A stretch of DNA of 23,971 bases from a virus: positions 1 to 23,971 of the IMG/VR virus record IMGVR_UViG_3300044641_000963. One strand, given 5' to 3'. The translations under genes were made by a program, and so were the position numbers. This document shows positions 6,209 to 18,098 of this stretch, one piece after another (positions within the stretch are counted from its first letter, which is position 1; the number at the start of each line of letters is the position of its first letter). Under the pieces are notes generated by a model that was not told where the DNA came from, did no database searches, and saw only the letters and a list, made by a program, of their open reading frames with translations.

Positions 6209-6795
6209 ACCTGCTCCAAAGATATGTCAACACTCCAAAATGTTTGTAGTCCTCTTTTAATAACTGAAAAACTGCAAGATGTAAACATTACTGTGTAAGT
6301 ATAGTCATCTGATAAAGCTCCGTCAGACTGCTCAATTAAATCGGTACTAAAAACTGTTGGGTTTAATTTAATTCTAAAGGGTAGTTTGCCAGCAGAACTT
6401 TCATAAAAGTTTTTCAAATCTTCTGCGCCCCAAGCACCGTCAACTGTTTCATTTCTAAAAGAAGGTAACATTTCCCATGAAATATTTATATTAATCTTAT
6501 CGGCCACAATATATTTTCTGAGTGTACCGTTTGACATTCTAGATGACTTCTCAATTCTATTTGTATCTATTGAAATTGGCTGTCTATTGTGCTCAGTAAC
6601 TCTTCTAAATCTTAATTGATTTTTAGAGCTATAAGCCAAGTTGTTTCTAGTTGCTACAGATGATGTATATGAATTACCTGGGGCAACAACAGAAGCCCCC
6701 TTATAATCAAATGAGTTATTTGCTGTATCAATTGCAAATGGGTCTAATGCCTCTATGTATAAAATTGAGCCTTTACTTAAATTTTGAAAACTCAT
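6205..6795 (-). CDS. Dit-like distal tail protein
   Basis: This 196-residue protein lies between the tape measure gene and the Tal-like gene, the standard position of the distal tail (Dit) protein that caps the tube and forms the baseplate ring. It starts at an ATG in a TAATG overlap with the tape measure stop, with only a weak ribosome site, so coupling to tape measure translation is likely. The sequence has long beta-type stretches (ININISWEMLPSF, YTYTVMFTSCSFSVIKRG, FWSVDISLEQV) and a short helical segment (AEDLKNFYESS). It is shorter than typical two-domain Dit proteins, consistent with an N-terminal tube-like domain only. Position is the main evidence. Confidence 0.65.
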   Translation of the reverse strand: MSFQNLSKGSILYIEALDPFAIDTANNSFDYKGASVVAPGNSYTSSVATRNNLAYSSKNQLRFRRVTEHNRQPISIDTNRIEKSSRMSNGTLRKYIVADKININISWEMLPSFRNETVDGAWGAEDLKNFYESSAGKLPFRIKLNPTVFSTDLIEQSDGALSDDYTYTVMFTSCSFSVIKRGLQTFWSVDISLEQV

Positions 6796-9700
6796 TATGA
6801 CCCAACCTTTCTATTTACTCCAGCTGCCATTTCTTTTAATCTCATTTCATTACGTATTTCTAGTGCAACATCTTTTGCTGTCACGTTTGTTCCATTTAAT
6901 TCTACATTTATATTATATACTGATCCTGATGCTGCCGCCGTAGCATTTGGATTAAATGGATTCATGTTAGCTGGAATAACAGCTTCATTTTTATGAAGCA
7001 TTGCTAACATATTAGCTGGAACCATATTGATTCCATTTTCAAACATTGGTAAACCTAGATTTTTTAATGAAGAATTTGAGAAGTTTTGGACAAGCCCGCC
7101 ATTTGCCCATCCGTCGCCGCGGCTGATACCCCAACTGCCACGGCTAGCCTCCGACTGTCTAGCAAGTTTTTCTGCTTCAATAATTCTTTGTAGCTCTGGT
7201 AAAGCTGCTGGCTCTATATATCCGCCTGGACCATATGGGAAGTTTGCTGATGTACGGTATGTGCTTCCAAACCACCGTATAGTTTCTGGGCGAAGTGCTG
7301 CACTTAGAGTTGAATCAAGGTCAGCAGTTCTATCAAACTGCCAGCCAATTATGCTGTTTCGATCATTAAATTCGTCAATGGGGTAGCGAGGAGTTGCTGG
7401 TGCAGAGGATACGGTTTCAGTTATATGATTATTTTCCCAAGATCCGATACCTTTCCTTGGCTCTCCAGTTGATGGCTTTGCTTTCTTAGACTTTTTAAGT
7501 TTCATTAGTGTATCTAGATAGCTCTTTATGCCAGTAATTGAAGTTGCACCATAGTAAGGATCATCTGCCATAAACCCACCGATACGAAGAGCTGATGGCC
7601 TTCCCATGTCAGTTAAAGTAGGTGAATGTTTTATTCTAGTAATTGAAACTGCTTTATTGTATAAAGCTTCTGAAAGATGAAGCCATCTATATTCTGGATG
7701 TGTTCCACGATAGCTAATGTGTCCAGTAACTGGATCATAGTTTATCCAGGACATTTGTTTTTTAGTAACAGGATCTAGAATCTCTGCTTGGTGCATTCCA
7801 CCTGCGCCAAAGCCTTCTGAAGTTACTCTTCCTTCTTTTAAACCTTCAATAAATTTGTCTATGTATTTTGCATCAGTAGGTAAAATATCTGCTTTCTCAA
7901 ACCTAAAAATATAATCTTTTCCGTTTACCTTAATAGACTCTTCTATAATTTTTGGCAAATTCTTATTTTCTTCAATAAGATTAGCGGCAGTGGTATTTTT
8001 TAAATCTGGTAGTGAAGTAAAATTATTTCTCCTTGCTGCTCTTATTGCATCAGATAGCGCAAGTTCATATCTTGCTTTTGCAAACTCTGGTGTGTCAACT
8101 TTATCTGCTTTTTTAAGAGCCACAAAATTACTTCTAAGTGTAGCGTTTGGAATAAGGCTAACTCTAGCTTCTGTTGGTAAATCTAGAGTTGCTTTATTTA
8201 TTAAATTATATGCTGCAGAACGTGCACGAAGTGTATTAACTCCTTTTAGAGCACCCACTCCTGGAACAAAATTTAATCCTGCATTAGCCCAATCACCTTT
8301 AGTTGCGCTTCCCTTTGCAATTTCTCCGAAAGGATGAATCATAGCTTTCATCAAGCTAGAAACATCTGATTCATAAGATGTTGGATTTAAAGCTTTTCCA
8401 ATTCCATCTTTTCCAAATGTCGGAGTTTTACCTTGAAAGTAAACACCCAAAAGATCTGAAGCTAATGATGTAAGTGGCGCAAGAATTCCAAGTGGGGAAC
8501 GAGTGAATACTTTACCAAATCCCTCTGAGTAGTTATTTATAGGATCATCTATTTTAGATTCATAATATGAAAGATTTTTATTCTTTCTTGCTTTTTGTTT
8601 TTGGTTTTCATCCTTAAGTGGAGTAAGCTGAAGTCTCATCTTCTCAGCTTCGGTTTGCTTTCTGCTTAAACCAAACGATCTCATACCTAGGTCATGAGGT
8701 GCACTTGAATGAGTGTGCCCTACTGGACCGCCAGCATGGAACATTAGTGGCCCTAAACCATAGGCACCATTACCGATTCCGCCCATAGAGGCTCCAGAGC
8801 CTGCCAAACGTATAGGGTCTCTATCTATACCCATTCCTGGGCTTGTAAATGGCTTGCGTGGCTGCTCAAGCATCTGATGCATGTAGTCTGAGTGCTGTGG
8901 AACATCTCCGCTAAAATTAAGTCCTGGTATTTCTGTTCCACCCCATATGTCCATACCTGGGCTACGTGGTCCAATAAATCTTGAAAGCTCTCCCCAATAT
9001 TGTCCAAAAGGATTTCCTATTGGTTTTCCAGATCTTGAATATGGAACCCCTGGCTTCTTTTGTCTTGGTACTGTTATAGGCCCACTAATCCAATTTCCAG
9101 AATTAGTTAATGAGTTTACGACTTTTCCACCTTCTGCAAACTTCTTTATGCTTACCTTTGTACCTGCAAAAATTCTTGACCCACCCATATACTTTGGATC
9201 TTTTAGCTGAGGATTCATTTCCATTAATTGCTTAACAGTAATACCATACTTTGCAGCAATACCAGATAGTGTATCTCCTCTGTTTACTGTGTATCTTTCA
9301 TTTTCATAATCTGATTTAGCTTCGTCTGCGCTGTAGTATTCTTGTGTGCCATATCCATATTTAACGTCATCTACTGGCTTATATGAAGGTCTTCCAAATC
9401 CTACAATTGGAGCATTCTTTAAATTGTATTTTCTTACTTTTCTAAGTACGGCTCCGCCGCTTCTTTGACTTCCAGAACCTGATGTATTTCCTTCTATAGT
9501 TGAAACTAAATTCTTTCCTAAAACATTGCTTACAAGACCAACGTGAGAAATTCTGTTGACGCCGTCTCCTGGGAAATCCATAAAGGCTAAATCTCCCCGA
9601 CGTGGATTCATTGTTGTCCACTTGCCACTCTTCATAAATGATTGAGCTCCGCCAGGAGTCCAAATCATGCTTGACAAATCTACTCCAGATTTTTTTGCTG

Positions 9701-12700
9701 CCCAGTTTATAAAAGCGCCACACCATGCAATAAATCTATTTTTTAGATCGTAGGCTTTTTGTGCAAAGCTACCGAATATTGTGTCATTGCCTCTTCCTTC
9801 TTGATATCCTAGCATAGACTCTGCTGTTTTGATCATTGCGTCTGCTGTTCCCATAGTGCCAACTTTTCCACCATTTGCAAATCTGCCAGCGTTTAAGTTA
9901 TCTAAGAAACCTGATCCAAATTGTCTTTCAGCTTTTTCAACTGAACTTGCTCTAATTACATACTCTCCATTTGAAAGATAAGCTGGAATAGAATCAGATG
10001 TTCCTGTGCCTGGGCCTCTTACATCTCCACCTGGATTAAAGTGTTTAACTGCTCCTCCAGTGGCCATTTTAACTCTGGCACCCTTTGTTTTCTTCTGATC
10101 ATCCCATGAATAAACTTCTGTTCCAGAATCATTGCTTATGTAGTCTTTCCCATTCCAGCTAAATCTATACCATACAACATCATTAATGCTAACCATCTTT
10201 GAAGATCCAGAAGATCTTGCATTTTTAGCAGCCTCTATTGCATTTTTTCCTCTGCCTTGCTGAACTGTATCTTTTCCAAATTCAATAGTACCCTTTGGTG
10301 TGGGTGCCTTGTAACCTCCTAGTGCTTTCACAAGGTCATCACGAAGTTTAGATAGGGTTACTCCTCCAGTAATTAAAATTGCTAGCTTGCTTACAGCTGC
10401 AACATCTTTATCAAACTGGGAAAGAGAATCATTGTTTACTGTTCTATTTTCTGAAAGAATAGGTCTTCCCTGTGCATCAAATCCAGTTGGAGATCCAGTA
10501 GTTACTTTTTCAGGAACTTTTGGCTTTCCGTCTGAATTAAAATATCCTGGGAATGCATTTCTTATTGTTTCTGCAAGCAGGCCTGGTCCAGTCCCAGCCT
10601 TTTGCATTTCTTTTAGGAAACTAATAAGCTGTCTCTTAATATCTGCTTCTTCTTCAACTCTATCTTTACCTGAAAGAAGCTGTGCATTAACAGCTCTTGT
10701 ACTAAGCTCGTTATACTTTGACTGAAATTTTTCAAGAGTGTCTTTTATATCAGCTGCTACTGCAGAGTCATCTTGATTATTTTGGAAAACAGTATTCTTT
10801 TTATCTTGTGCGTCTTGTATTGCTTGTGCATCTTTTTCCAATGGTGCTTTTGCCTTATTAGCCGCATCTTCTATAGCCTTCTGGGCTAACTCTGATTGCC
10901 TATTTTGAGTAAGCTGATCTATATCAAGCTTTGCTTGATTTGCTGCAGCCATATCTCCACGAGAAACTGCATCTGCATATTTTATCTGTAGCTTTTGCAA
11001 TTCTAATGCATAGTTTGAAGCATCTTGAGTTGCCCTTAAGGCTTCTAGCTTTTTATTTTTCTCTTCATCGATAAGTTTGATCTTTTTTGCAATTACTTTT
11101 AATTCTTCCTGTGCACTTCTTTGAGAAGCTGCATTTGCTCTTTGAGCTGCTGCAGAAGTTGCAGCAATTGTTTTTTGAAGTTTAGATAAAGCAGATCCAA
11201 CAGTTGCGTATGTGGTAGCAGAATCAGCAGCTTGTGTTAGCTGGGAAATTCCTGTTCCGATTGCTGAAGTAAATCCAGCAAGTTTTGATGCTAGAGTAGA
11301 ATCTATTTTGCTTAGATCAATATTTATTCCAGCAGTAAAAAGTTTCCACTTTGCAAGTATTCCCTTTATAGTGTCTGATTCATTAATTATTCCTGCTAGC
11401 AAAGGTTGTGTTTTTTGAAGATTTAAGTATACGTCGCTACCTATTTCTTTATTCATGCCTGGGTTATTTGTTTCTGCTTTAGACATAACCATTTCATAAG
11501 CTTTAAACTCATCTATAACATTTCCAAGCTCATCTTTTGTTCCAACTAAAGATTTCGTTGCTTCAGAAAATACACCTATTAGTCCTTCAAAACCGTTTCC
11601 TACCTCTTTATACCAATCAGCAGTTCCTGTTCCTTTGCTTAAGGTGTTTACCAAATTTCCAACAGAAAATTCTGCCGCTGTAGCTTTATCTGTTATTGCT
11701 CCAAATTCTGTATTTGCAAGCAATTTGTATGCTTGAGAAGCTTTATTGCTATTTGCTAAAGCACCGTATATTTTTTTATTTGCTTCTTCAACGCTCATCC
11801 CAGCAGCAACCATTTGTGCTTTTTGATTATTAATTAATCTTTGTGTTTCTGCTGTTGTTTCTGATCTATTCAAGGATTCAATTACATCTTTTAATTCTTT
11901 TCCTTCTTCTTTTGCCTTCTTAAGTTCCTCTATTGATTGAGGTAGTCCAGGCATACCAATTGAGTTTCCTTCTGCCCCCTTGGCTGCTGCGGTTGCTAAT
12001 TTTTGTTTATCTATGTAGCCCTGCATGGTTTCTTTAAGATTAAAATACTTTATTCCAGCCTGCTCCGCAGCTTTAGCTGTCATAGAAAGTCCTATAGAGG
12101 CATCTTGCTGAGCATCCTTGTAATCTTTATAAAGTTTAAACGCTAAGCCTGCGGCACCGATTGCTGCTCCTATTAAGCCAAAGCCTTTAGCAAATCTTCC
12201 AATCATTGCTCCAAATCTTGCCATCTTGTTAAGACCAGTAGTTAATTCTTTTAATGCAGACCCTGCGGATTTTATCCCTGCACCCATTCTACCAAATGGA
12301 AGCATTGGAAGTATTGAAGTAGCAGCCATAAGACCCATTCCAGCGGACGCTCCTGACACTTCTTTTCCTAGGATGTTAACTTTTTCTTTGCCCATCAATG
12401 CCATGCCGCCCATTGATCCAGCCATTCCAATTCCCATTTGAGAACCCATACTCATACCATTGTATCTTCCAGGAACAGAAATTCCAGCTGCTTTGGCTTG
12501 CGCCTTAGTCATTGAAACATCTCTACCACCAGTTGACTCATTGTTTACAAGATACTCTGTTCTTCTCATGCCAATAGTTCCGACTTTTCTGGATTGAACT
12601 CCTTCTACACCAGTATCTTTATAGCCTCCAACAAATCCTGGTCCGAATAGTCCCTGCGATGGTGCTTGTCCAGCAGGATATCTAGCTGCAGCATAAGCAT

Positions 12701-15700
12701 TTTGTTCTCTTATGATTGCGTTTTGCGCTCTTTTGGCAAAATTTAATGTTGATGTAGCAGCTGATCTTACAGCACTGCTCATATTTGTAGCAGTATTCTT
12801 TATAGACTGAGTAATAACTCTTGCATTTATATCTATAGCTTTTGCTAGCTGCATAGAGTCTACCTTAATTGAATTTCCCATAGATCTAAAAGCTGCTGAT
12901 AAATATTGAGCTTTCATTGCTGCTGAATTTTTAAATGGGTCAAGCATGTTGTTAACCATTACTTGTCCAGGGTTATAGAAGCTTGTTGTTCCTGTTCTTA
13001 CCGCTTCTCTACCTAAGCCGCTTGTTAAAGCCTGCTGTCCACCTATCTGATGAGATCCTGCTCTAGATCTTGCTGCCGCTGCATCTCTTTCTCTTTGTGC
13101 ACGTTGTTCTGCTTCCCAGTTAGCTCTTGCAGCAGGGTTTCCTGGTCTGCGTGATCCATCTTTTTTAGGACCGTAAGCATATCTTCCTCGTCTGATTGGA
13201 CCGCCACCAACTGGTCCTCCAGCATTAAGATATTTTGGATTAGCATGCACGGCATGATATTTACTCCAATCAACCTCAATACCATCATCCAATCTTTTGA
13301 GCATTGCTTCATAAGGTGGTCTAAGATCTACAGGTAAACCATTTATTATTTTTACTAATTGTGGACGGGCATCTTCTAATATTTTCTTCATTTTTTTGCC
13401 GTATTTTTTTGGGCTCATTTTAGAAATTATTGGGGCAGTGTCACGTGCAAAATCTTTTCTTGCTCCACCCTTAACGGCAAGCAGATTGATCATTGCCTGC
13501 TTTTCCATAGAGTTCATTTCAGCAGCTTCTGCAAGACGAGTGTTACCAGATGCTCTAGGGAATACTCCAGATTGTCCGACATCTGGATTAAAATTACCAT
13601 ATACGTTTGATCTAGATAAATCTTTATTGTTTAAAAGAAGAGAGTTGGCAAGCTGCCTAAGCACTGTATCTTCATCCCATGGCACATTGGTGTTAGCAAA
13701 GCGTGGATCATAGTCTGATTCTAGTGCGAGCAGTTTGCTTTTTTTTCTTGGATCTAATGGGTTAGCAACCGTTCTAGCTCTTTGAACTGGAGATTCTATT
13801 CCAAAAAGATCTCTTGCAATTTGAGTGCCTATTGGCTCATGGGTTGCAACTACTTCATGAGGAACGCCTTTAACAAAAACCTTTTTATTACCAACCTTAT
13901 ACAATCCAGATACGCCAGGTACAGGATAACTCATTCCTGTGCTTGCAGAAATCTGATGTCCATATTCAGTTACTGGTGTATCAGCAAACTTTCCTAGAGC
14001 ATCTTTCGAACTCAATTCCCTTGCTTTTGCTAAAATCTTTAATTGCTTATCTGGTGCAAGTAACTTTAGTGCGGGAGCAATATTTCCATAATTTGATCTA
14101 CCTCTAGAAATATGTCCGCCTGGAATCATTCCGCCAGCATTCCATGCTCCCGATACAAGCATTGGTCTTGGAGGTCTTCCAGCAAGTATCCACTTTGATC
14201 TTTTTGCTGCTGCTTCTAAAAGCATACGTAAAGAATTTTTTTGATCTTTATTTGCTCTTACTACTCTGCCAGATTCCCAGTCAGCCTTGCTTTTAATTTT
14301 GCCATCATCTTGCAATGCTGCAAATATATCATCTACGCTTGCAAACTTGTCTAGGCCTGTTTTCTTTAATGCTGCAGCAAGGTTTGCTTTTGCATCTTCT
14401 GAACTTAAATTTAAAACATCTCTTGATAAACCTATAGTTTCAAGGGTGCTCATTACATTATTTATTCCAGCAGGTAATACAGCACCAACCCCCATATAAC
14501 CACTAGTTGTATATCCAACTAGATCTTTGCGTCTAAAATGTGCTTTATCGTGCAATCCTTGAATAGATGGAGACTTATCAGATGCATTTAAAAATGTTGT
14601 TGGAGCAATTGCTGCTATAAGATCATGCACTCCAGCAAATTTTTTATTTGCTAGCATTGCTTCTCTAACGTCATTTAATTTCCAATTTAAAGCTTTGCTA
14701 TTGCTTCTTGGGTATACAGTTTCTCCATCTGCATTTTTAATACCAGTTGCATCTTTAACACGTGGGACCATGCCATCTCTTTCTAGTCCCTGGACCTGCT
14801 TAATTCTTATTTTTACAAAATTGTCATCGCTTCCACCAGCTTGAGCTTTAGCTTTATCAAAATTGCTTGTTGCAATATTTATAGCTTTATCAATTGGTAA
14901 ATTATTGTGATAAGATAATTCAGCTGCGTCAAGCATGATCATTCTTACTCTTATATCATCTTCGTATCTTGGGTTATTAATAAACTTTAAATACTCTCTA
15001 TACTGTCTTTTAAAGTTTTCTTCTTTCATTCTAGCCTTAGCAGACTTAGACATTTTTTTACCGTACGAATTAATGCCACGCATGATCTGCCCGCCAAAAC
15101 TATATCCACTATTTGCTGCATCTACTGCTGCATATAGCTCAGGCATTCTTTGAATTTGAGGACCAAAAACTACTTCCCGTGGAGTAAGAGCTGCTGTAAT
15201 ATTTCCACCGTCATTTAAATATGTGCTTGGAGCCATTGCAACTAATGGGGCATTTGCTGGATCCATTGCAGCTTGCTGGTTCAAAACATATCCACCTAGT
15301 GGAACACTTCCCAATCTATCATCATAGTCTACTGAAGATGGTCCTGAAACAACTGTTTTGTTTGGACCAAATGATTCAATGTCTCCACCTATATTAAACT
15401 TAGGCATTCTTGTTGTTTGAATACTGTATGGTGCACCAAATGTTCTTACACCACGGAGTCTTCCAAACTCTTCCATGACGGAAGCATTTGTTTTTTTCTT
15501 ATACAAGTCTCTGAGTGTAAACTGTCCATTCGCATCAACAACTGGTTGATCCATCATTGGAGCTCTTGTTAAATCAATTGTTCTTCCTCGTCCAGCAGCA
15601 TACATACTTACTGCTGATCCCATATCTGCTTCTATCTGTGCATTAAGTGCAAGTATTCTTGCCTTTGCTTGATCAACAGTAATTTCTGCATTTCTCATTT

Positions 15701-18098
15701 GTTGAACAATTAATGCAGATTGAGTTGCTGCGCTATCTGCAAATCTTTGAGTTATTGGAAGAATATCATCGAATGTATCTAATAGTTCTCTGCTTACCGT
15801 TCCACCCATTGCAATTGTTTTCTTTAGATTTGCAACCTCCTGCTCTGTTTGCATTCCTAGAGTTGCCATCAATGCATGGAATTTAGCAGCCTCTGGTGCA
15901 ACAATTCCTGTAGATATTCCCTTTACACTTGTTAGGCCTTCAACATTTGGAAGTCTGTCATGCATATAAATTTGAGGAGTTCTAGATATTCCCCTATTTA
16001 CTGGTATAGCTCCTGGAACACCACCAAACAGAGTAGCTGGATTATTAAGATCCCTTGGTCTAATGTGAGACATTGCTCTAGTATTAGGATCTCCAACATA
16101 TGGATCATCAGGATCTACAACTCTTCTTCCATGAGCAGGAGCAACAATTGTATTTCCAGCAACAGTAGAGACTCCTGCGTTTACTGGAACTGCACTCTTC
16201 ATTGATGCTGCTTGAAGGTTTTGATAATCTAAAACAAGTTTTTGCAATGCATTGTGAAGAACTTGAGCTGCAGCTGCATCTGAATAAAATGCATTCTCAA
16301 CCATTTCTGCTGCTTTTTGAGCAGCAATAATTTCTGGAGTAAGCATCTTCCATCCATTTGCTTTCATAAAGAAAGATCTGAGCTGGACTATTCCCTTTGT
16401 TATATAACCAAAGAAGTTGGCAAGTACACCAGTTAACATAATTAGTGGGCCAACTAATGCTGTAAATCCTGCCATAAAAGTAAGAGCTTTTTTAATCGGT
16501 GATGGCAAATTAGTGAAGAATTCTAAAATCTTTGACGCAGCATTTATAAGCTTAGTTGCAACCCCAAGAAACTCATCTCCTACATCTGCAAGCTGTGCTT
16601 TTAAAGACTCCATAGCTCTTCTATACTTACCAGATGCAGACTCTGTAATCATTCCTAATTCTCGCTCTGCAATTCCCGCCAAATCCGAAGTGCTTGCCTT
16701 CATTAAATCCATAACCTGAAGCGTCTGGCTTCCTTCTTTTCCAAGGTTGTTTAGAAGTGCGCTCATTCTTGCAAACTGGAACTTACCAAACATTTGCTCA
16801 AGTGCTCTAGCTTTACTCAATGGGTCTAGGGTATTTAAAGCTTTTTGCAAATCTAGCAACATTCCAGTTGTATCACCAGTATTTTTTGCAACCAGCCCCA
16901 TTACATCTATGCCAAAATCTGACATTATACCGACTGTTTGTTTTGTTGGATTAATAAGAGAAGCTAAACCTGACTTTAATGCGTTTGCACCTTCAGATGC
17001 GTTAATTCCACCTTCTCTCATTGCAGTCATATAAAGAGCTAAGTCTTCGATGCTGCCTCCGAGTTGCTGTATAACTGGACCAGCTTTTGGAATTGCTTCT
17101 ACTAAATCGTTAAGTGTTGTAGAAGTTTGGTTTTCAACTGCGTTAAGAAAGTTAATTGATTCTGTAAGCTGTTGTGTATTTTGCTTAAAAGCTGTTTGAA
17201 TTGAAAGAGTAGCTTTCATTGCATCTTGTCTATCTACTTCTCCAAGGATTGCAAGTCTAGTGGTTTCTTCTATAGAGCCTAAAAGATCGTTGCCCATCTT
17301 TCCAGTTGCCGCAATATCAGCACCTAGTGCAATTGTATCTTTAAAAGAAGCTCCCATTGTTTGAGATAAAGATTTTGCTGTCTGTATAACTTCTTCTCTA
17401 ATTGCTTTTAAATCCGTTGCAGATGTTGCAGCTAGCCCACCGTAAACCTTTGTAAGTCTTACAAGCTCTTGGTCTGCTTCTCTAAATGCTTTTCCTGCTG
17501 CAGCACCAAACATTGTTAATGGAACTGTAAGTCCAACTGTCAGCTGACGACCTGCCCACTGGGTATTTTTACCCCAGTTAATTAAAGATCCTGCTCCTTC
17601 AGATAGTGCACGATTCATTATCTGAAGTTCCATGCGAGCTAGCTGTGCACTATTTTTTACAGCGTCTAATCCTCTTGGGATCATAACGTTGTACTGCATT
17701 AATCCTTGAGCATTTCTACCTAAAGGCTGGAGCACTGAGTTTTGAAGCATTACCTGCTCTTTGGCAAGCTCCCTTATCATTCCCTTTTGAGTTGTAGCGT
17801 GTTCTCTAAATGTCTGGAAGTAATTCTTAAGCTTTAATCTACCAGAGTCTAGGTTTTTACCAAACTTATCTACATCTGAATTAAGGTTTACAAAGTGACT
17901 AGAAAACTGTCCGCTTCCAGTTAGTGTATCTCTAAATAAGTTATTTGCTAATTTTGTTGAAGCAGATATGGCTCTATTAGATGCAAGAAGTTCTCTTTGT
18001 AATTGTTGGAGACTAGAACTAGCCCTGTGTACTTCAGACACAAGGCTAGATAAGTCGGCTTTGGCGACTATACTGGTTACAATTTGTTCGTCAGCCAC
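6795..18098 (-). CDS. Giant tape measure protein with CHAP, LysM and candidate kinase-like and GNAT-like modules
   Basis: This 3767-residue protein starts at GTG in a TAGTG overlap with the chaperone stop, behind GGAG at 6 bases. It sets tail length and is expected to enter the cell during DNA ejection. Residues about 205-480 match the TP901/PhageMin_Tail tape measure core ('EADQELVRLTKVYGG', 'IEDLALYMTAMREGG'). Hydrophobic segments lie near 535-565, 1885-1935, 1965-1990 and 3195-3220. A charged coiled coil spans about 2312-2436. The motif 'GPGTGTSDSIPAYLSNGEYVI' near 2690 is typical of phage tape measures. A CHAP peptidase (Cys2793, His2852, Glu2869) and a LysM domain (about 2930-2985) follow. 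Additional modules resemble a HipA-type kinase fold (about 1390-1620) and a GNAT (about 3385-3510); one at 1015-1320 is unrecognised. At about 0.15 nm per residue a wholly helical ruler predicts roughly 565 nm, an upper estimate if globular inserts do not count. Confidence 0.95.
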   Translation of the reverse strand: MADEQIVTSIVAKADLSSLVSEVHRASSSLQQLQRELLASNRAISASTKLANNLFRDTLTGSGQFSSHFVNLNSDVDKFGKNLDSGRLKLKNYFQTFREHATTQKGMIRELAKEQVMLQNSVLQPLGRNAQGLMQYNVMIPRGLDAVKNSAQLARMELQIMNRALSEGAGSLINWGKNTQWAGRQLTVGLTVPLTMFGAAAGKAFREADQELVRLTKVYGGLAATSATDLKAIREEVIQTAKSLSQTMGASFKDTIALGADIAATGKMGNDLLGSIEETTRLAILGEVDRQDAMKATLSIQTAFKQNTQQLTESINFLNAVENQTSTTLNDLVEAIPKAGPVIQQLGGSIEDLALYMTAMREGGINASEGANALKSGLASLINPTKQTVGIMSDFGIDVMGLVAKNTGDTTGMLLDLQKALNTLDPLSKARALEQMFGKFQFARMSALLNNLGKEGSQTLQVMDLMKASTSDLAGIAERELGMITESASGKYRRAMESLKAQLADVGDEFLGVATKLINAASKILEFFTNLPSPIKKALTFMAGFTALVGPLIMLTGVLANFFGYITKGIVQLRSFFMKANGWKMLTPEIIAAQKAAEMVENAFYSDAAAAQVLHNALQKLVLDYQNLQAASMKSAVPVNAGVSTVAGNTIVAPAHGRRVVDPDDPYVGDPNTRAMSHIRPRDLNNPATLFGGVPGAIPVNRGISRTPQIYMHDRLPNVEGLTSVKGISTGIVAPEAAKFHALMATLGMQTEQEVANLKKTIAMGGTVSRELLDTFDDILPITQRFADSAATQSALIVQQMRNAEITVDQAKARILALNAQIEADMGSAVSMYAAGRGRTIDLTRAPMMDQPVVDANGQFTLRDLYKKKTNASVMEEFGRLRGVRTFGAPYSIQTTRMPKFNIGGDIESFGPNKTVVSGPSSVDYDDRLGSVPLGGYVLNQQAAMDPANAPLVAMAPSTYLNDGGNITAALTPREVVFGPQIQRMPELYAAVDAANSGYSFGGQIMRGINSYGKKMSKSAKARMKEENFKRQYREYLKFINNPRYEDDIRVRMIMLDAAELSYHNNLPIDKAINIATSNFDKAKAQAGGSDDNFVKIRIKQVQGLERDGMVPRVKDATGIKNADGETVYPRSNSKALNWKLNDVREAMLANKKFAGVHDLIAAIAPTTFLNASDKSPSIQGLHDKAHFRRKDLVGYTTSGYMGVGAVLPAGINNVMSTLETIGLSRDVLNLSSEDAKANLAAALKKTGLDKFASVDDIFAALQDDGKIKSKADWESGRVVRANKDQKNSLRMLLEAAAKRSKWILAGRPPRPMLVSGAWNAGGMIPGGHISRGRSNYGNIAPALKLLAPDKQLKILAKARELSSKDALGKFADTPVTEYGHQISASTGMSYPVPGVSGLYKVGNKKVFVKGVPHEVVATHEPIGTQIARDLFGIESPVQRARTVANPLDPRKKSKLLALESDYDPRFANTNVPWDEDTVLRQLANSLLLNNKDLSRSNVYGNFNPDVGQSGVFPRASGNTRLAEAAEMNSMEKQAMINLLAVKGGARKDFARDTAPIISKMSPKKYGKKMKKILEDARPQLVKIINGLPVDLRPPYEAMLKRLDDGIEVDWSKYHAVHANPKYLNAGGPVGGGPIRRGRYAYGPKKDGSRRPGNPAARANWEAEQRAQRERDAAAARSRAGSHQIGGQQALTSGLGREAVRTGTTSFYNPGQVMVNNMLDPFKNSAAMKAQYLSAAFRSMGNSIKVDSMQLAKAIDINARVITQSIKNTATNMSSAVRSAATSTLNFAKRAQNAIIREQNAYAAARYPAGQAPSQGLFGPGFVGGYKDTGVEGVQSRKVGTIGMRRTEYLVNNESTGGRDVSMTKAQAKAAGISVPGRYNGMSMGSQMGIGMAGSMGGMALMGKEKVNILGKEVSGASAGMGLMAATSILPMLPFGRMGAGIKSAGSALKELTTGLNKMARFGAMIGRFAKGFGLIGAAIGAAGLAFKLYKDYKDAQQDASIGLSMTAKAAEQAGIKYFNLKETMQGYIDKQKLATAAAKGAEGNSIGMPGLPQSIEELKKAKEEGKELKDVIESLNRSETTAETQRLINNQKAQMVAAGMSVEEANKKIYGALANSNKASQAYKLLANTEFGAITDKATAAEFSVGNLVNTLSKGTGTADWYKEVGNGFEGLIGVFSEATKSLVGTKDELGNVIDEFKAYEMVMSKAETNNPGMNKEIGSDVYLNLQKTQPLLAGIINESDTIKGILAKWKLFTAGINIDLSKIDSTLASKLAGFTSAIGTGISQLTQAADSATTYATVGSALSKLQKTIAATSAAAQRANAASQRSAQEELKVIAKKIKLIDEEKNKKLEALRATQDASNYALELQKLQIKYADAVSRGDMAAANQAKLDIDQLTQNRQSELAQKAIEDAANKAKAPLEKDAQAIQDAQDKKNTVFQNNQDDSAVAADIKDTLEKFQSKYNELSTRAVNAQLLSGKDRVEEEADIKRQLISFLKEMQKAGTGPGLLAETIRNAFPGYFNSDGKPKVPEKVTTGSPTGFDAQGRPILSENRTVNNDSLSQFDKDVAAVSKLAILITGGVTLSKLRDDLVKALGGYKAPTPKGTIEFGKDTVQQGRGKNAIEAAKNARSSGSSKMVSINDVVWYRFSWNGKDYISNDSGTEVYSWDDQKKTKGARVKMATGGAVKHFNPGGDVRGPGTGTSDSIPAYLSNGEYVIRASSVEKAERQFGSGFLDNLNAGRFANGGKVGTMGTADAMIKTAESMLGYQEGRGNDTIFGSFAQKAYDLKNRFIAWCGAFINWAAKKSGVDLSSMIWTPGGAQSFMKSGKWTTMNPRRGDLAFMDFPGDGVNRISHVGLVSNVLGKNLVSTIEGNTSGSGSQRSGGAVLRKVRKYNLKNAPIVGFGRPSYKPVDDVKYGYGTQEYYSADEAKSDYENERYTVNRGDTLSGIAAKYGITVKQLMEMNPQLKDPKYMGGSRIFAGTKVSIKKFAEGGKVVNSLTNSGNWISGPITVPRQKKPGVPYSRSGKPIGNPFGQYWGELSRFIGPRSPGMDIWGGTEIPGLNFSGDVPQHSDYMHQMLEQPRKPFTSPGMGIDRDPIRLAGSGASMGGIGNGAYGLGPLMFHAGGPVGHTHSSAPHDLGMRSFGLSRKQTEAEKMRLQLTPLKDENQKQKARKNKNLSYYESKIDDPINNYSEGFGKVFTRSPLGILAPLTSLASDLLGVYFQGKTPTFGKDGIGKALNPTSYESDVSSLMKAMIHPFGEIAKGSATKGDWANAGLNFVPGVGALKGVNTLRARSAAYNLINKATLDLPTEARVSLIPNATLRSNFVALKKADKVDTPEFAKARYELALSDAIRAARRNNFTSLPDLKNTTAANLIEENKNLPKIIEESIKVNGKDYIFRFEKADILPTDAKYIDKFIEGLKEGRVTSEGFGAGGMHQAEILDPVTKKQMSWINYDPVTGHISYRGTHPEYRWLHLSEALYNKAVSITRIKHSPTLTDMGRPSALRIGGFMADDPYYGATSITGIKSYLDTLMKLKKSKKAKPSTGEPRKGIGSWENNHITETVSSAPATPRYPIDEFNDRNSIIGWQFDRTADLDSTLSAALRPETIRWFGSTYRTSANFPYGPGGYIEPAALPELQRIIEAEKLARQSEASRGSWGISRGDGWANGGLVQNFSNSSLKNLGLPMFENGINMVPANMLAMLHKNEAVIPANMNPFNPNATAAASGSVYNINVELNGTNVTAKDVALEIRNEMRLKEMAAGVNRKVGS
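7575..7950 (-). other. GNAT-like module inside tape measure (about residues 3385-3510)
   Basis: Within the tape measure protein, the segment from 'VNGKDYIFRFEKAD' to 'GRPSALRIGG' has the order of strands and helices of a small acetyltransferase. A two-strand meander (AEILDPVTKKQMSWINYD) leads into 'GHISYRGTHPEYRWLHLSEAL', the position of beta-4 and the acetyl-CoA loop. It ends with 'HSPTLTDMG', which resembles the HS..RT..G ending of actinophage GNAT-like proteins. The canonical R-x-x-G-x-G/A loop is replaced by Arg3471-Trp-Leu-His-Leu-Ser, so cofactor binding may be lost. The assignment is inference from pattern. Confidence 0.45.
9135..9860 (-). other. CHAP peptidase plus LysM cassette inside tape measure
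   Basis: Residues about 2748-2900 of the tape measure form a CHAP (NlpC/P60-like) fold. 'AWCGAFINWAAKKSG' holds the nucleophile Cys2793, 'HVGLVS' holds His2852, and 'TIEGNT' holds Glu2869 and Asn. This is the complete catalytic set in the usual order. A LysM peptidoglycan-binding domain follows at about 2930-2985 ('YTVNRGDTLSGIAAKYGI', 'LMEMNP'). Wall-degrading domains in tape measures are known to open peptidoglycan locally during DNA entry. The intact residues suggest this one is active. Confidence 0.85.
13170..13220 (-). repeat. Gly-rich linker repeat, copy 3 (tape measure residues 1627-1643)
   Basis: This linker reads GGPVGGGPIRRGRYAYG. It lies directly after the candidate kinase-like module and shares the GG-x-[IV]…RGR..YG pattern with copies at residues 1322-1338 and 1002-1013. 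Confidence 0.6.
13240..13930 (-). other. HipA/kinase-fold-like module inside tape measure (about residues 1390-1620)
   Basis: The segment starts with 'SGLYKVGNKKVFVKGVPHE', which looks like a kinase N-lobe: beta strands with Lys1410 in the VxVK position. A helix 'IGTQIARDLFGIESPVQRA' follows, as in HipA-like and related atypical kinases where a GlxxP-type turn follows the helix. 'LANSLLLNNKDLSRSNVYG' supplies a catalytic-loop-like N-K-Asp1493-x4-Asn1498, the same D-x4-N spacing as in protein kinases. A helical C-lobe runs to about residue 1610. No clear DFG-type Asp is seen after the loop (GVFPRASGN stands there), so activity is doubtful. It lies between linker repeats 2 and 3. The call is inference from motifs only. 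Confidence 0.4.
14085..14135 (-). repeat. Gly-rich linker repeat, copy 2 (tape measure residues 1322-1338)
   Basis: This linker reads GGMIPGGHISRGRSNYG. It separates the unrecognised module (about 1015-1320) from the kinase-like module. It aligns with copy 3 without gaps over 17 residues at GG, G, the I-x-RGR tract and YG. Confidence 0.6.
14150..15055 (-). other. Unrecognised module inside tape measure (about residues 1015-1316)
   Basis: The segment between linker copies 1 and 2 begins MSKSAKARMKEENFKRQYREYL. It is mainly helical and charged, with 'SYHNNLPIDKAINIATSNFDKAK', 'LNWKLNDVREAML', 'HDLIAAIAPTTFLNASD' and a Gly-rich 'VGYTTSGYMGVGAVLPAGIN'. It does not resemble the core ruler, which is Ala/Gln/Lys-rich. 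I cannot assign a family. Confidence 0.4.
15060..15095 (-). repeat. Gly-rich linker repeat, copy 1 (tape measure residues 1002-1013)
   Basis: This linker reads GGQIMRGINSYG, a shorter copy of the linker at 1322-1338 and 1627-1643. It lies immediately before the unrecognised module. Confidence 0.5.

Follow-up and report, generated by a model that had tools for sequence, protein, structure and literature searches.

Some phages inject host-modifying enzymes, T4 Alt and the polyvalent proteins among them, and tape measure proteins (TMPs) are known to carry cell-wall hydrolases. The polyvalent proteins combine kinase, GNAT and peptidase domains in polypeptides that are proposed to be injected with the DNA (Iyer et al. 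2017, PMC5512222); their kinases lack the C-terminal subdomain and have been described mainly from elements of Verrucomicrobia-Chlamydia and Bacteroidetes (PMC5512222). TMP-related effectors have been described for the contractile injection systems of Streptomyces, namely Tme, which has an active endonuclease domain (PMC11126660), and Sle1 (PMC13277306), and the TMP of mycobacteriophage TM4 has a peptidoglycan hydrolase motif, according to a passage of PMC13277306 that cites it. TMP release has also been described together with the formation of a membrane pore for DNA passage (PMC8718954). Our literature search, outside which most subscription journals lay, returned no report of a kinase in a TMP; the ‘kinase domain protein’ of phage MinS1 is a separate 95-aa protein and not the MinS1 TMP.

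Here we describe a real, conserved kinase-like module that is carried as cargo by TMPs. As in the polyvalent proteins, several domains (predicted as kinase-like, CHAP, LysM and, probably, GNAT) are joined in one multidomain phage protein; in contrast to their kinases, the module has a helical C-lobe in its AlphaFold2 model, such that the loss of the C-terminal subdomain does not apply, and its carrier is a tape measure protein; that term does not occur in PMC5512222. The likeness to Tme and Sle1 is that a tape-measure-related protein carries an active domain (the endonuclease, in Tme), but for these no kinase domain is reported, the active domain is C-terminal and the particle is not a phage virion. 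TM4-type TMPs likewise hold an enzymatic domain, and the TMP described here has CHAP and LysM domains as well; as far as that passage on TM4 goes, however, such hydrolase motifs act on the cell wall, whereas a kinase would need ATP and therefore the cytosol.

The window (the whole stretch of DNA that was analysed, 23,971 nucleotides) lies in the structural region of a tailed-phage record. Its TMP, of 3767 aa and with a GTG start, is encoded at 6795..18098 on the minus strand, as are all features given below, and bears the TMP signature in both Pfam and PHROG profile searches (PF10145 PhageMin_Tail, E 1.5e-27; PHROG tail length tape measure protein, E 8.3e-118). The tail-gene region around it also encodes, always on the minus strand, a major head protein, a head-tail adaptor and minor tail proteins. 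WhiB-type genes, an actinobacterial marker, occur in 6 of 11 long contigs, and Streptomyces phage TMPs are among the best matches to the TMP N-terminus; together these indicate actinobacterial hosts, and the carriers are a group of siphophage-like viruses, probably of such bacteria.

The kinase-like module occupies aa 1335-1625 of the TMP (13224..14096), with a core at about 1370-1625. Its boundaries come from two related loci, L221 and L322, where similarity to the window TMP holds inside the module and not in its flanks, and glycine-rich linkers lie on either side: AGGMIPGGHISRGRSN at aa 1321-1336 (14091..14138) before it, and a second at aa ~1625-1643 (13170..13226) after it, with similar linkers flanking other blocks of the TMP. 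An earlier note had placed a ‘HipA-like’ kinase fold at 13240-13930, which does correspond to about aa 1390-1620, and its residue numbering is correct throughout: VFVKG at 1407-1411 with K1410, GIESPVQRA at 1433-1441, and NNKDLSRSN at 1490-1498 with D1493 and N1498. Short overlapping ORFs found on either strand between 13040 and 13930 were taken as chance.

Pattern scans of viral contigs found 30 relatives using the protein alone, and then, with growing alignments, 115, 212 and finally 333 confirmed places. From the loci that were fetched, 117 distinct module copies reduced to 74 representatives sharing less than 90% mutual identity, the most distant of them at 34% identity to the window. Five residues are identical in 74/74 of these, down to that 34%, so that chance does not explain the pattern: the strand-3 lysine K1410 (13869..13871), the alpha-C glutamate E1421 (13836..13838), D1493 and N1498 of the catalytic loop D1493-LSRS-N1498 (13605..13622; its leucine is likewise found in 74/74), and D1506 (13581..13583), the putative metal-binding, DFG-type aspartate, within NPDVG. 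The set thus comprises the strand lysine, alpha-C glutamate, catalytic aspartate with D-x4-N spacing and metal aspartate of a kinase. Where the earlier note had seen no obvious DFG-type aspartate it was mistaken, and its suggestion that the module might be inactive is not favoured, since the full catalytic set is retained. G1388, S1390, P1392, G1398 and Y1400 are also invariant and make up a glycine-rich stretch that separates strand 1 from strand 2 (aa 1388-1400, 13899..13937), a candidate for the ATP loop; E1460-S1461, at the end of strand 5 (13716..13721), is a putative hinge, with E1460 (E126 of the 74-sequence alignment, A5) nearly invariant and S1461 present in 73/74. In seven pairs dN/dS was 0.13-0.17, which shows purifying selection on the module. 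No convincing relative was found among isolate phage records, nor any in two pattern scans of genome contigs, which reach only close to moderate relatives.

An initial AlphaFold2 model built on 15 close sequences scored poorly (pLDDT 63.6) and was superseded by one from alignment A5, with pLDDT 92.7 and pTM 0.89. In model numbering its elements run E47-51, E64-68, E71-78, H81-98, E106-111, E121-128, H131-134 and H142-154, followed after D1506 by H197-204, H215-224, H229-253, H260-273 and H277-285. K1410 falls in strand 71-78, E1421 in helix 81-98 and the catalytic loop after helix 142-154, while the glycine-rich segment lies between E47-51 and E64-68, giving a predicted topology of beta-beta-beta(K)-alphaC(E)-beta-beta-alphaD-alphaE-D..N..D-helical C-lobe. 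This is the kinase order: a five-strand N-lobe with alpha-C between strands 3 and 4, a hinge and a helical C-lobe.

Structure searches with Foldseek point the same way. Against the PDB, the top five matches are all CtkA (E 1.5e-3 to 1.3e-2, probability 0.97-0.99); of the 50 matches listed, 49 are kinases or kinase-fold proteins, including HipA, PI3K and IRAK4. The TM-scores of the best matches stay low, at 0.34-0.38, and their rmsd exceeds 8 A; TM is mostly below 0.4. No PDB match reached E <= 0.001. Among predicted viral structures (BFVD), the best match is an uncultured phage protein named as a PI3/4-kinase catalytic domain, and another top match is a 1201-aa portal protein from an uncultured phage. 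Regions resembling the model occur in the uncultured phage proteins A0A6J5S481, A0A6J5MJB0 and A0A6J5NE85, one of them named HK97 portal protein; kinase-like cargo may thus be carried on other virion proteins too. Taking topology, structure matches and invariant residues together, we consider it very likely that the module has a kinase-type fold, and to that extent the earlier proposal of such a fold inside a TMP is borne out.

The closest structural matches, the CtkA/HipA-like kinases (PDB 3akj, 3akk, 3akl, 2wiu), share with the module, as modelled, a small two-lobed kinase architecture, the strand lysine, the alpha-C glutamate, the D-x4-N loop and the metal aspartate. The ‘HipA-like’ label holds for this structural resemblance only. 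HipA_C (PF07804) had no match in the window record and no HipA family appeared in hmmscan; PI3_PI4_kinase (PF00454) was likewise without a match in the record, and an hhalign comparison with eight HipA sequences was non-significant (probability 0.65%, E 0.088, 29 columns of the alpha-C region only), even if it did set E1421 in register with HipA E203. Rather than a stand-alone toxin gene with an HTH antitoxin, as is characteristic of HipA, the module is embedded in a phage TMP and has no antitoxin partner, and D1506 follows N1498 by 8 residues, against about 18 in HipA and about 13 in classical kinases; this short spacing counts against a kinase reading. No family in Pfam, PHROGs, NCBIfam or PDB sequences recognises the module, with matches to ROXA-like, uteroglobin and ribosomal proteins being at chance level only. 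For these reasons we liken the fold to that of a HipA/CtkA/PI3K-type kinase, and suggest that the module probably works like one, yet do not class it with HipA; it is a new, divergent kinase-like family.

The distribution of the module is that of an exchangeable part. Wherever the N-terminus of a kinase-bearing ORF is recognisable, the ORF is a TMP; the others are truncated 5' or result from a broken reading frame (L367, L030/L063). In L030/L063, several frame changes interrupt one relative's TMP, both inside the module and upstream of it, through sequencing error or decay. Among relatives of the window the module occupies about aa 1330-1620; elsewhere it starts at about 1250, 1040, 985 or 766, and in L221 the match to the window TMP is confined to the N-terminal region and the module. 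It is absent from 25/25 complete TMPs (2,042-2,302 aa) of a sister group with 63-68% N-terminal identity, while TMPs of lower N-terminal identity, at 57-61% or 34-42%, do carry it; it is also absent from L084 and L093, at 80% and 74% N-terminal identity, respectively. In L084 (5881-13998), an unrelated block at aa about 1020-1480, without a Pfam match and set between similar glycine-rich linkers, replaces both the module and the block upstream of it. L175 and L059 have N-termini 96.6% and 94.4% identical to that of the window and modules at only 54% and 74%. This variable position, the absence from the sister group and a divergence out of step with the TMP N-terminus are the behaviour of swappable cargo; the numbers of TMPs with and without the module are not frequencies, because the module itself served to fetch most of the loci. 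A second conserved block lies upstream of the module at aa 1010-1334 (14097-15071), between glycine-rich linkers; it shows 36-100% identity among relatives and is replaced in some.

Four other explanations merit consideration, two of which concern whether this is a working kinase fold at all. The low TM-scores and the lack of a PDB match at the threshold above could mean that the structure matches reflect a generic alpha+beta arrangement; we think this decidedly improbable, as the PDB matches are dominated by kinases, the best viral match is a PI3/4-kinase-like protein, and strands, helices and catalytic residues follow one another as a kinase requires. That the fold is real but catalytically dead, serving as a binding or spacer domain, might be argued from the missing sequence-family support and the short N-to-D spacing, but five catalytic residues invariant across 74 divergent copies would be unexpected in a spacer or pseudokinase, and we give this explanation very little credence. 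Catalytic activity of some kind we hold to be likely.

The remaining two accept an active fold and differ in what it does and where. Kinase-fold families with other chemistry exist, SelO (AMPylation) and SidJ (glutamylation) being precedents, and the module could transfer AMP or glutamate, or have a lipid or small molecule, and not a protein, as its phosphorylation substrate; in favour stand the PI3K- and PI4K-type structure matches, and in its short N-to-D spacing and its unusual glycine-rich loop the module departs from standard protein kinases. Against this, the best PDB matches are protein kinases, with CtkA foremost and HipA also listed, and on balance we judge other chemistry unlikely. 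Residence in a structural protein could instead indicate work in virion assembly or inside the particle, phosphorylating the TMP or tail tube, for example, rather than on the host; complete TMPs whose N-termini are 63-68% identical do without the module, however, such that it is no general need of assembly, and the swapping pattern resembles that of cargo, which makes an assembly role improbable in our view. We therefore favour a new, divergent kinase-fold family that is exchangeable TMP cargo, is delivered by the virion and modifies a host target at infection, to which we assign a probability of about 50%.

Other parts of the TMP bear on how such delivery might work. A Kyte-Doolittle scan placed hydrophobic segments at aa 537-567 (16398..16490) and aa 1969-1987 (12138..12194), with the module between them. 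At least two such segments are present in the window TMP and in 11/12 other TMPs scanned, and the module sits between two of them in the window and in 9/10 kinase-bearing relatives scanned; L359 has only one segment at the threshold used. After the second segment come a CHAP peptidoglycan hydrolase domain at aa 2791-2871 (9486..9728; PF05257, E 2.9e-5 and 24.9 bits, just under the cut-off; PHROG endolysin, E 4.4e-20) and a LysM domain at aa 2936-2984 (9147..9293; PF01476, E 3.6e-12), and because both are inside the same TMP, this protein would combine cell-wall and putative protein-modifying activities. Near its C-terminus, aa 3360-3530 (7509..8021) form a probable GNAT acetyltransferase-like domain, assigned by alignment (A7) to a homologous segment of L144 (11856-12344) that matches Acetyltransf_10 (2.6e-4) and Acetyltransf_1 (2.7e-3), both just under the cut-off; this domain was found in only a few relatives.

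Synthesising these observations, we propose a speculative model, in which we infer both catalysis and delivery. The TMP would exit the tail ahead of the DNA, and its C-terminal CHAP/LysM part would act on the cell wall. With this part in the wall and the two hydrophobic segments spanning the membrane, the stretch between them, which holds the module, would lie on the cytosolic side, with access to ATP. There, ATP-Mg would be bound through K1410, E1421 and D1506, with D1493 as the catalytic base and N1498 as a metal ligand, and the module would phosphorylate a protein target; modification of a host protein early in infection might, for example, blunt defence or redirect host machinery. Whether the module, once delivered, does serve as a kinase inside the host is, to our minds, evenly balanced, and one consideration counts against delivery, namely that a folded 290-aa domain would have to fit the tail lumen. 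More tentatively still, and with some doubt, TMPs at large may be swappable injection carriers for cytosolic enzymes, with an undescribed kinase family in the slot between hydrophobic segments and delivered on a membrane hairpin ahead of the DNA.

Our analysis provides a kinase-like family that Pfam, PHROGs and NCBIfam do not match and for which over 300 places in viral metagenomes were confirmed; it also yields a 290-aa construct with set boundaries and five target residues for mutagenesis. The findings suggest that, in phages of this group, a kinase is injected into the bacterial host along with the DNA; if true, the TMP would be a general effector route, and would offer a testable origin for the very first stage of host takeover.
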